64,000 nt of DNA, from contig NZ_CP044545.1 of NCBI RefSeq assembly GCF_008935075.1, forward strand, positions 1,515,501 through 1,579,500. The letters are read 5' to 3'. The notes under the pieces are model-generated. The model did not search any database and had not been told where the DNA came from. It was given only the letters and a program-made list of their open reading frames with translations. This DNA comes from Pradoshia sp. D12 (GTDB lineage Bacteria > Bacillota > Bacilli > Bacillales > Pradoshiaceae). The position numbers and the translations under genes were made by a program. Each line of letters starts with the position of its first letter. Positions within the stretch are counted from its first letter, which is position 1. Positions 5,873 through 28,754 of the stretch are shown in pieces.

Positions 5873-6643
5873 TTGACGAAAGTGGCAGTAGACAAAAATA
5901 AGATTATTATTGATGCCAGTCTTCTGGCCGGGCGTATTATGCTGGAAAACGGAGCGGAAACGAGCCGGGTAGAGGATACAATGGAAAGAATGATTAGTAC
6001 TTCACTAGGAATAAAGCACGGAACAAATGCATTTACATATGTGACAGTTAATGGAATTTTTGTGAATATAGGCTTGGACAATACGAATTTCGTTAGAATC
6101 GATAATCGGGATCATAATCTTGAAAAGGTAACGAAGGTCAATCAAATATCAAGAATGTATTCAGAAGGCCGTCTGACAATTGAGGAAGTTCTTTCGGAAC
6201 TGAAAGCAGTGGATCAGGACCCGCTTGACTACCCCTTATGGTTCAGACTTATTTGTACAGCTGTATTGAGCGGAAGCGTTATGCTGATTATGAATGGCAC
6301 ATTTGTGGATTTACCGGCTAGTATGATTGGTGGCCTTTTGTGTTATATAACCTATTTAATTGGCTTTAAAATAATGAAAACACCATTCATAGTGGAATAC
6401 ATAGCTGCTTTTTTGGGTGGGATTGTTGCCTATTATATTAACAGTATAATGGGAAGTCATTTAAATTCCGTCATGATAGGGACGGTTGCACCGCTTGTAC
6501 CTGGAATTGCGATGACCAATGCTATTCGCGATATGATGGCAAAGCATTATCTCTCAGGAACAATCCGGTTAGTGGAGGCTGTCTTCATTGCGGGTGCGAT
6601 TGGTACGGGTATTGCTACCGTCTATTATTTATTTATCAATTAG
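5873..6643 (+). CDS. ThrE-family exporter, large subunit (YjjP-like)
   Basis: This 256-residue protein matches the ThrE N-terminal half. A cytosolic domain of about 115 residues contains the typical MLENGAETSRVEDTMERM and is followed by five hydrophobic segments including APLVPGIAMTNAIRD. It pairs with the small membrane protein encoded 12 bases downstream. Such split pairs (YjjP/YjjB in Escherichia coli) are thought to export small carboxylates such as threonine, serine or succinate. The substrate here is unknown. The start is TTG at 5873 after a weak AAGTGAG. The two genes form an operon ending at the hairpin at 7110. Confidence 0.85.
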   Translation: MTKVAVDKNKIIIDASLLAGRIMLENGAETSRVEDTMERMISTSLGIKHGTNAFTYVTVNGIFVNIGLDNTNFVRIDNRDHNLEKVTKVNQISRMYSEGRLTIEEVLSELKAVDQDPLDYPLWFRLICTAVLSGSVMLIMNGTFVDLPASMIGGLLCYITYLIGFKIMKTPFIVEYIAAFLGGIVAYYINSIMGSHLNSVMIGTVAPLVPGIAMTNAIRDMMAKHYLSGTIRLVEAVFIAGAIGTGIATVYYLFIN

Positions 6644-25785: not shown

Positions 25786-26127
25786 TTTTCAACCACAAAT
25801 TAATAATTATATTAATTATTTGCAATAACTACTTATAATATGAGGATTAAAGAGAGGCTTTATCCTAGTTATGAGGTTGATATTTAAAACATTATCATAC
25901 TAAAACTGATTGTTAGTATTAGAAGTCATTATGAATAGTGCTTCAACATTTCAGGACTTTGATTTGTAAATGGTTGATGTTACTTTTGTGACTTCTGTAT
26001 AGGTTGAAATACAAAGTAGACTGTGACCAAAAAACAAAAAGAAATTTATGTGAATAAATTAAAAATATACAAAAATTAGTAGATGAAAATATTTACATTT
26101 TTCATATCGGGAGTATTATTATCAAAG
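25786..26127. other. Intergenic between pbuG and the c-di-AMP riboswitch
   Basis: About 340 AT-rich bases presumably carrying the two divergent promoters. No aptamer or ORF recognised. Confidence 0.35.
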
Positions 26128-26332
26128 TTTCTAATTTCTAAATCGCTTAAGCATAATTGCGCGGGGGACCCATTGTGTTCTGGGGTGAATCCATTATGGT
26201 AGGGCTACTCAGTAGGCACGAATCCGACAGCTAACTCCTCAGCGTTTTATGAGAAGGAAGGTGGAACTTGTGAGACGAAACTAATATAACGTCTGCAGGT
26301 CTATTTATTGATGGCTTGCAGGCGTTTTTTGT
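26128..26332 (+). ncRNA. c-di-AMP riboswitch (ydaO/yuaA type) with terminator
   Basis: The conserved blocks of the ydaO aptamer appear in order: AAATCGCTTAAGC (26140), GGGGGACCCA (26163), GGGGTGAATCC (26182), AGGGCT (26201), CGAATCCGACAGCTAACTCC (26219) and GAGAAGGAAGGTGGAAC (26251). A terminator follows at 26288-26330, with arms AACGTCTGCA and TGCAGGCGTT plus six T residues. In characterised members c-di-AMP binding favours termination and shuts off potassium importers or wall hydrolases. Here the gene it should control is only a 17-codon remnant. Aptamer edges are approximate. Confidence 0.92.
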
Positions 26333-26384
26333 TGATCAAGCTATTAATTTATTAATTTCTTAATAATAAAAGCGGGTGAGCAGA

Positions 26385-26438
26385 GTGGTTTCATCAATAA
26401 AACGTATACTCATTGGTCGTACTTTAAAGTCAATATAA
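26385..26438 (+). pseudogene. kimA: Remnant of a KimA-type potassium importer gene
   Basis: GTG 26385 begins a frame of 17 codons, VVSSIKRILIGRTLKSI, then TAA. The pattern xxxIKRxLIGxxLKS is the N-terminus of KimA (formerly YdaO) APC-type transporters, the classic target of this riboswitch. The remaining about 600 codons are missing, replaced by a terminator and the two-component genes. GGGTGAG lies upstream as a weak ribosome site. The homology rests on a short stretch and is recalled from family knowledge. Confidence 0.65.
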
Positions 26439-26442
26439 ACAC

Positions 26443-26482
26443 AGAGTGATTTCCGCTATTAATGGAATCACTCTTTTTTTGC
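26443..26482 (+). terminator. Terminator after the kimA remnant
   Basis: AGAGTGATTTCC / GGAATCACTCT stem with seven T residues. It seals off the riboswitch transcript from the two-component genes. Confidence 0.88.
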
Positions 26483-26620
26483 TTAAACTACACATCCCTT
26501 TAGATTTAATAGTTATATGAAATAATGATGGCATTTTTATGCATAAAAATACAAGTAAGTATTTACCTCAAAAAATTATGGTGATATAATTTATTTACTT
26601 TTTTAAAGAGGGTGATTCCC

Positions 26621-27283
26621 ATTAGAATGTTAATTTTAGAAGATGAGCCTGTTGCGAGAAAAGTACTAAGGAAAAGGCTTGAATTACAAGGATATACAGT
26701 AGATGATTTTGACGATCCAGAGGATGCAATTATAGCTTGTGATAAAGTGAAATACGATTTATTAATTTTTGATATTACCATTCATGGTGCAATTATTGAT
26801 GGTTTGGAAGCTGCTTCTATTATAAGGAAAAAACATAATATTCCCTTTGTCCTCGTTACCGGAGCAGATTCGTCAGATGCAAGATTGCGAGGATTACAGG
26901 AAGGTGCGCTTTTGTATTTTACAAAGCCTTTCAGCTACAAAGAACTTGTCCTTAACATAAAAAATATTATGGAAAGTACAGCAGTAAAAAATAATTCGTA
27001 TTATATACATAGAGGATTAAAAATTGAGCCTCTTCGTGGTACGATTACGAAAGAAGATGGCAGTGTTGAAACGCTATCGAAAATTCCAATGCAGGTGTAT
27101 ACGTATTTATTAGAACATAAAAATCAAGTTGTCAGTAAACAAGAATTATGGGAAAAAATATGGACTGAGCATGGGGATATGAGTGATGACATTATTAATA
27201 CAACGATAAATCGGATTAGACGAAAGATAGGTAAGAATAGCATTAATACGATTAAAAATGTTGGATATGAAATCAATGACTAA
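26621..27283 (+). CDS. OmpR-family response regulator
   Basis: A receiver domain (LILEDEP acidic pocket, phosphoacceptor Asp in LLIFDITIHG about residue 51, Thr in LVTGAD, Lys in FTKPFSYKE) is joined to a winged-helix DNA-binding domain ending in INTTINRIRRKIG and IKNVGYEI. It should act on DNA when phosphorylated by the kinase that overlaps its 3' end. The ribosome site AGAGGG is eight bases from ATT 26621, 14 from ATG 26627, and overlaps GTG 26612. ATT is therefore the best-spaced start, ATG the conservative one. Target genes are unknown. B. subtilis orthologue not recognised. Confidence 0.88.
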   Translation: MRMLILEDEPVARKVLRKRLELQGYTVDDFDDPEDAIIACDKVKYDLLIFDITIHGAIIDGLEAASIIRKKHNIPFVLVTGADSSDARLRGLQEGALLYFTKPFSYKELVLNIKNIMESTAVKNNSYYIHRGLKIEPLRGTITKEDGSVETLSKIPMQVYTYLLEHKNQVVSKQELWEKIWTEHGDMSDDIINTTINRIRRKIGKNSINTIKNVGYEIND

Positions 27284-28754
27284 AAATTGGCTTACTGTTA
27301 AACGGTTTACCATTTTATCCAATATTCTCATGTTCTTGATATTTACAGGCATAGTCTTACTGCAAAATATTAATCGGGTAAACGATTATGCAAAACATCG
27401 AATCAATGAAGTATTGCCGAACTTCTATTTGGTTGAAACTCATTTAGCTGAATACGGTTTACAGGAAGACTTTCTAAATGATAAATTCGGTAAGCTACCT
27501 GGTGCTTATGAGTATATGATGATTTTGGATAATGACTCAAGTTATCAAAATATTGCTTATAACCAAACATCAAAGAATATCAATATTTATGAAGGAAAAG
27601 ATAAAAAATATTTACCAATAATTAAGTGGTTATTAGGTCAGAGTCGAGAAGACATCTATGTAAAAGATGGTTTAAGTGATAAAAAAATTAAGGTTGAGTT
27701 TTATGAAGTTAATGGATCTGTAATAGCTGAAATTGAGCATGCCATTCATACGGAAGCATTCAATGGTCAGTTATATACGAAAATAAATCTCTCGGTTCTG
27801 CTTATTGAAGATTTTAAAGAAATACTCATCACGAATGGTTATTTATATTTGATTATATTCATTTTTTTCTTTTTGTTTCAGGCCTTATTATTTGAAACTA
27901 TTTTTAAACCTTTATCGAAGATGACCAATCATTATAAGCTGAAAAACAAGTTTAATATTACACCCCATTTTATGAATGACTATATGTTAAGGGAAATGGA
28001 AGAGTTAAACAATGTTACCAATAGTAGTGTTGAAAAAATGCTCGCTGTAACCGACGAGACGCATGCTTTCCTAGAAGAGATTGTCCATGAGGTTCGGAAT
28101 CCTGCTCATAATATTAAGAATACCATCGAATATTTGGAGGACCTGATTGAAACGGATACCCTTCCTGAGATAAAGGAAGGATTATTTCATATTAAAAATG
28201 AATCTAGTAATATAGATTCATTATTAAAGGGTATTAAACTATCGCATGAACTTTATTATTTAGGAGGAAATCCTCCAGATAGCTGGATAGAACCAAAAAG
28301 CTGTATTGAACCATTAATGGCTGCCTATATGAGGAATTACCCCTCCTACACATTTATTTTTAATGATAATGTAAGTAAAACCACCAAAATCTGGATTGAT
28401 GAGTATTCATTTGAATTAGTCATGCAGAATTTATTGAGCAATGCAGTGAAATATTCTACAAAGGAATCAACCATTTTTGTGGGAATTAGAGAGAATAAGC
28501 TTGATAATACTATTAATATTGACGTAACCAACACTGGCTCATCTATCCATTATTCTAATATCAATAAGATCTTTGATAAGTATGTACGTCTAAGTATGGC
28601 TAAGCAGATAACGTCTGGATCGGGTATTGGGTTATGGATTGTTAAAAGGGTTTCTGAAATTTATGATGTGAATATTGATGTAAATAGTACAAATCAATCA
28701 GCAACCTTTTCGCTGAAGTTCAAGCATATTAAACAGGAAAATATTGAAGAATAG
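27258..28754 (+). CDS. Sensor histidine kinase
   Basis: A kinase of up to 498 residues with two membrane helices (about 17-36 and 195-216) around an extracellular sensor of about 155 residues that resembles no domain I know. There is no obvious HAMP. His277 in EEIVHEVRNP is the phosphorylation site. The N box is MQNLLSNAVKYS, the G1 box is altered (TNTGSSI instead of DNGxGI), and the G2 box GSGIGLWIVK is normal. It overlaps the response regulator by 26 bases, so translation is coupled. ATG 27276 is an alternative start. The signal is unknown. Confidence 0.88.
   Translation: MLDMKSMTKNWLTVKRFTILSNILMFLIFTGIVLLQNINRVNDYAKHRINEVLPNFYLVETHLAEYGLQEDFLNDKFGKLPGAYEYMMILDNDSSYQNIAYNQTSKNINIYEGKDKKYLPIIKWLLGQSREDIYVKDGLSDKKIKVEFYEVNGSVIAEIEHAIHTEAFNGQLYTKINLSVLLIEDFKEILITNGYLYLIIFIFFFLFQALLFETIFKPLSKMTNHYKLKNKFNITPHFMNDYMLREMEELNNVTNSSVEKMLAVTDETHAFLEEIVHEVRNPAHNIKNTIEYLEDLIETDTLPEIKEGLFHIKNESSNIDSLLKGIKLSHELYYLGGNPPDSWIEPKSCIEPLMAAYMRNYPSYTFIFNDNVSKTTKIWIDEYSFELVMQNLLSNAVKYSTKESTIFVGIRENKLDNTINIDVTNTGSSIHYSNINKIFDKYVRLSMAKQITSGSGIGLWIVKRVSEIYDVNIDVNSTNQSATFSLKFKHIKQENIEE

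Follow-up and report, generated by a model that had tools for sequence, protein, structure and literature searches.

In this study, a c-di-AMP riboswitch leader of the kimA type, with no kimA gene behind it, was found in Pradoshia sp. D12, and it is probably a decaying leader left after truncation or deletion of kimA. The unit has the anatomy of a kimA leader and is homologous to such leaders; two core pairs of its aptamer are broken, its expression platform is intact, and KimA is absent from the genome. The unit lies in a stretch of 64,000 nucleotides (G000:C1:1515501-1579500, hereafter the window) of a genome assembled as a single contig of 3.93 Mb with 100% completeness.

Layout of the locus

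The left neighbour of the unit is a gene for a purine permease of the xanthine/uracil type (PF00860; 24404..25720, minus strand), which is divergent from the riboswitch, and the right neighbour encodes an OmpR-type response regulator (26612..27283, plus strand). The gap between these two genes is 891 bases long and holds a promoter-like site, the aptamer, an antiterminator/terminator pair, a short reading frame and a second terminator, all on the plus strand. The putative promoter (TTTACA, 16-base spacer, TATTAT; 26092..26119) follows the conserved pattern of kimA leaders. It is followed by the c-di-AMP (ydaO/yuaA) aptamer at 26134..26260, an antiterminator at 26259..26307 (-14.6 kcal/mol) and, mutually exclusive with it, the intrinsic terminator of the riboswitch at 26288..26330 (-21.9 kcal/mol), with a T run after the stem. 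The reading frame at 26385..26438 consists of GTG, 16 further codons and the stop codon TAA at 26436-26438. A second intrinsic terminator (26443..26480; fold of -12.8 kcal/mol with a T run behind) parts the unit from the response-regulator gene, which has a promoter-like site of its own at 26562-26590. The aptamer, terminator, KimA-like stub and second terminator had been described in the initial annotation, and this anatomy was borne out by covariance search, folding and an N-terminal profile. A histidine kinase gene (27258-28754) overlaps the end of the regulator gene; in the congeners no such kinase is found beside the regulator.

Identity and damage of the aptamer

In an Rfam covariance search, RF00379 was the sole family above threshold in the 64-kb window. 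It matched 26134-26260 (+) at 75.2 bits (gathering cut-off 38; E value 1.2e-15), in agreement with the ydaO-type assignment made earlier. The score of 75 compares with 104-106 for the aptamers of the two congeners and with 110 and 113 for the kdp riboswitches of the same genome. Among 21 kimA leaders the window copy likewise scored lowest (94.5 versus 108-133 bits).

The damage was located by aligning 51 aptamers to a covariance model from whose training set the window's copy had been left out; it lies in the core helices, which are not fully paired in the window. At one position the window has G26203-A26218, where the other aptamers have G-C (49) or G-U (1), so that 50 of 50 are paired. At the other, C26162 is unpaired, the G that should face it being absent between 26238 and 26239; here too all 50 other aptamers are paired, 48 with C-G and 2 with U-A, and it is this covariation that marks the pair as one that matters. 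Both broken core pairs are unique to the window copy among the 51 aptamers. Across the 21 kimA leaders, two pairs are broken in the window, one in each of nine others and none in the rest, and the end branch of the window copy in the leader tree measures 0.45 against a median of 0.072. The change from CCTC to CTCC (T to C) was dropped as a candidate for aptamer damage, as leaders of family f46 have the same change.

The initial annotation had described both the aptamer core and the terminator as undamaged. The terminator was correctly described, all its pairs being standard, whereas the core has two breaks at pairs that are otherwise invariant; the argument for retained use drawn from an undamaged core is refuted as it was stated. 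On its sequence, the window aptamer is best filed as a degraded member of RF00379 rather than a working one, and it has presumably lost its response to the ligand.

Promoter and switch hairpins

Searching the 20 other leaders with the promoter pattern TTTACW-N17-TATNAT recovered 18 and missed two; in the window the spacer is N16. The promoter hexamers, the start codon and the start-site spacing survive. In the pairing check, 17 of 17 pairs were standard in the terminator and 17 of 17 in the antiterminator, although some excess of intact pairs is expected in the window copy since the hairpin structures were derived from it. The expression platform of the window riboswitch thus comprises a terminator and an antiterminator that competes with it, and the antiterminator pairing is kept, with covariation, across the kimA leaders. 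The outer base common to both helices, read along the antiterminator, shared and terminator strands, is G-C-G in the window, A-T-A in nine leaders and C-G-T in five. This coordinated change in three strands implies that for some time selection acted on both helices in the window lineage, and it suggests that the switch stayed under selection until rather late.

The KimA stub and the missing kimA

With a profile built from KimA N-termini, 52,989 stop-free 15-mers were scored across the six frames of the window; the stub, VVSSIKRILIGRTLKSI, reached 33.2 bits and the runner-up -0.7, which upholds the earlier reading of this 17-codon frame as resembling the start of KimA. It follows the KimA N-terminal pattern ..KRxLIGxPLKS with Thr in place of Pro (IGRTLKS). 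All KimA N-termini seen have Pro here; it was a requirement of the search expression by which the profile sequences were gathered, and separately examined open frames, free of such a requirement, still showed it. KimA is an APC-type membrane protein of about 610 residues, and the window frame stops after 17 codons. The stub represents only the 5′ end of kimA and not a KimA gene. The reference protein, taken from a congener, was verified as KimA by its match to the solved structure PDB 6s3k ('Potassium transporter KimA', 3.7e-249), with an alignment that begins at residue 3, HSIKRFLIGKPLKS. In an alignment of the 21 leaders, the stub sits at the kimA start of the others, and the homology that it shares at DNA level with leaders in front of an intact kimA extends to 26431, within codon 16, and no further.

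KimA was not found in the single-contig window genome with a query that reaches 73% identity in both congeners. When positions 26250-26490 were used as a query against 397 genomes of the order, the same leader was found in 20 other genomes, with E values up to 1.2e-5 and matches in the antiterminator-terminator part, and kimA followed directly and in frame in 20 of 20. The window genome is the sole exception among the genomes found with this leader, and no second gene-less copy was present among them. A search for a scar in which the kimA terminator or the 3′ end of the gene survived gave no remnant; the second terminator has no counterpart behind kimA in six relatives and resembles none of the kimA 3′ ends examined. 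Among the loci examined, three (L019, L024 and L098) seemed to have a c-di-AMP riboswitch without a gene and were rejected, as a gene stands further downstream. In the last of these, from Paenibacillus timonensis (L098 4365-6001), about 1.4 kb separate the riboswitch from the kimA gene downstream, the usual distance being 0.1-0.2 kb.

An in-frame TGA was observed right after ..LIGRPMKS in the kimA frame of Paenibacillus dokdonensis (NZ_STGQ01000001.1, L073 about 5985-6040). This is nearly the same codon as that at which the window stub ends; the remainder of the gene is open, and no riboswitch was found at this kimA locus by model search.

Comparison with the congeners and origin of the unit

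In both congeners the purine permease adjoins the response regulator, the two genes lying head to head across a gap of about 0.26 kb with no riboswitch in between. Their riboswitch and kimA are located between an EamA-type transporter gene and rnz-zwf, and the rnz-zwf region of the window genome has neither. The riboswitch-stub unit is thus not at the kimA locus of the congeners, and synteny of the riboswitch with sister genomes, proposed earlier as a check, was ruled out, both congeners lacking a riboswitch at this place. In the window genome, a chemoreceptor-like frame and several unrelated frames (G000:C1:2662000-2667100; L060 2000-7100) stand in place of the congeners' EamA transporter and riboswitch-kimA.

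It is plausible, at somewhat less than an even chance, that the promoter-riboswitch-kimA unit, or its 5′ piece alone, entered the permease/regulator gap from another lineage, in which case kimA may never have been functional there. Besides the short riboswitch-free gap of the congeners and the position of their kimA at rnz-zwf, this history is favoured by the identity of the aptamer, which is 82-88% to four family-f46 leaders versus 71-72% to the congeners, and by the best leader tree, which groups the window leader with f46 (support 77/82). However, grouping with the congeners was not rejected (p 0.36), the window row is a long branch in this tree, and the search for a mobile-element signature gave no flanking direct repeats and only one short TATTAATT array. 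A plasmid origin was also considered and gave no match. With the response regulator as query, only the three members of the genus were found among the 397 genomes at E<=1e-50, with no outside relative having the same permease/regulator locus. Such an arrival concerns how the relic arose and does not conflict with its being one.

Decay of the leader and alternative explanations

In the ancestral state the unit would have been a c-di-AMP-off switch in front of kimA, if the direction known for the family applies. With c-di-AMP bound, the terminator (26288-26330) would form and transcription would stop; in its absence, the antiterminator (26259-26307) would form and RNA polymerase would read into kimA. 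The kimA coding sequence is gone past codon 16, either by deletion in place or by arrival of a truncated copy only, and the 17-codon stub closed by the second terminator is left. Subsequent drift would account for the two broken core pairs, the spacer shorter by one base and the change of the invariant proline. The probable order of events is a working switch, loss of kimA and drift of the aptamer, the last being too recent to have ruined the platform. Either outcome of the switch would now give a short RNA, ending at the first terminator (about 200 nt) or at the second (about 350 nt, including the 17-codon frame), and any present output is most likely a dead-end transcript without function. 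The initial suggestion of a fresh deletion agrees loosely with the intact expression platform and less well with the several lineage-specific changes in aptamer, promoter spacer and stub.

Several observations weigh against this interpretation as a decaying leader. The terminator and antiterminator are fully intact with their coordinated three-strand change, and the start codon, start-site spacing and promoter hexamers survive, all of them features that a neutral relic of great age should have lost; the damaged aptamer might still bind c-di-AMP; and with one genome of the species only, the decay cannot be dated. The same intact promoter hexamers, hairpins and start site would suit a leader that is still used, yielding a c-di-AMP-dependent terminated RNA of about 200 nt or, at low c-di-AMP, a longer RNA with a 17-residue peptide, acting in trans. 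Riboswitch-derived RNAs that act in trans have known examples. Nevertheless, the core damage unique among 51 aptamers, the alteration of the stub at an otherwise invariant KimA residue and the lack of a second gene-less leader among the genomes found in the search of 397 make such use unlikely, and a c-di-AMP-controlled small RNA or peptide from this leader is possible but unsupported. Less likely still is a variant in which, after kimA loss and a shift to riboswitch-controlled Kdp, the leader was kept as a stand-alone RNA, for example as a c-di-AMP sponge or for pairing with other transcripts, its terminator switch being intact and its aptamer changed in affinity. Recruitment of the riboswitch to control the response regulator and kinase by read-through would fit the position of the next gene (26612) on the same strand; with the strong second terminator (26443-26480) in between, the regulator's own promoter-like site (26562-26590), and the same regulator gene standing without a riboswitch in the congeners, it is highly improbable. 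That kimA was deleted by an assembly or sequencing artefact is hardly credible: only one genome of the species is available, but it is a complete single contig, KimA is absent from it everywhere, and base-level changes are spread across the leader.

Relation to known riboswitches and potassium uptake

The window unit shares with the RF00379 leader of kimA the promoter, aptamer architecture, antiterminator/terminator, start-codon spacing and first 16 kimA codons. It differs in having no kimA behind, two broken core pairs and a second terminator right after the 17-codon stub. Riboswitches of second messengers without a detectable downstream gene have precedent: in Clostridium difficile, no coding sequence is detectable downstream of five class I c-di-GMP riboswitches (Cdi-1-4, -5, -6, -7 and -10), which are faintly transcribed (PMC6200980), a point in favour of retained use. 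In contrast to these, the window unit belongs to another class with another ligand, the identity of its lost gene is clear, and a stub of that gene is still present. We consider the unit for the most part a common scar of gene loss, of value as an experiment of nature and not as an element of a new kind. It offers a clean, nameable case of the fate of a riboswitch after gene loss, in which the sensor decays and the switch hairpins still stand, and it can serve as a natural test of where selection on a riboswitch is strongest. Should the RNA turn out to have a function, it would be an example of a riboswitch converted into an independent small RNA.

Riboswitches for c-di-AMP control kimA and ktrAB in Bacillus subtilis (PMC5573677) and kdp in B. 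thuringiensis, where binding of c-di-AMP favours the terminator (PMC6488665). The aptamer class of the latter is that of the window riboswitch, and kdpFABC of the window genome stands behind two tandem intact RF00379 aptamers of 110 and 113 bits, which keep their operon, whereas the window riboswitch has none. KdpA is absent from both congeners and KimA present in both. Potassium importers under one second messenger thus show a contrast, KimA being lost and Kdp standing behind two intact riboswitches in the window genome, and the reverse in the congeners. We infer that the Kdp pump may have removed the selection that kept kimA. The window genome also encodes two proteins with diadenylate-cyclase domains and one TrkH/KtrB-type importer.

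The tandem riboswitches of this genome (G000:C1:279423-279788; L033 2424-2790) are near-identical, each is followed by a terminator-like hairpin, and downstream of them are kdpFABC and two small ORFs, of 61 and 136 aa. At another locus (L024; G007:C19:16871-20019), three c-di-AMP riboswitches stand in a row on one strand, with a fourth divergent from them; a KdpA-like frame follows the row and a KdpD-like frame the divergent riboswitch, both named by eye.
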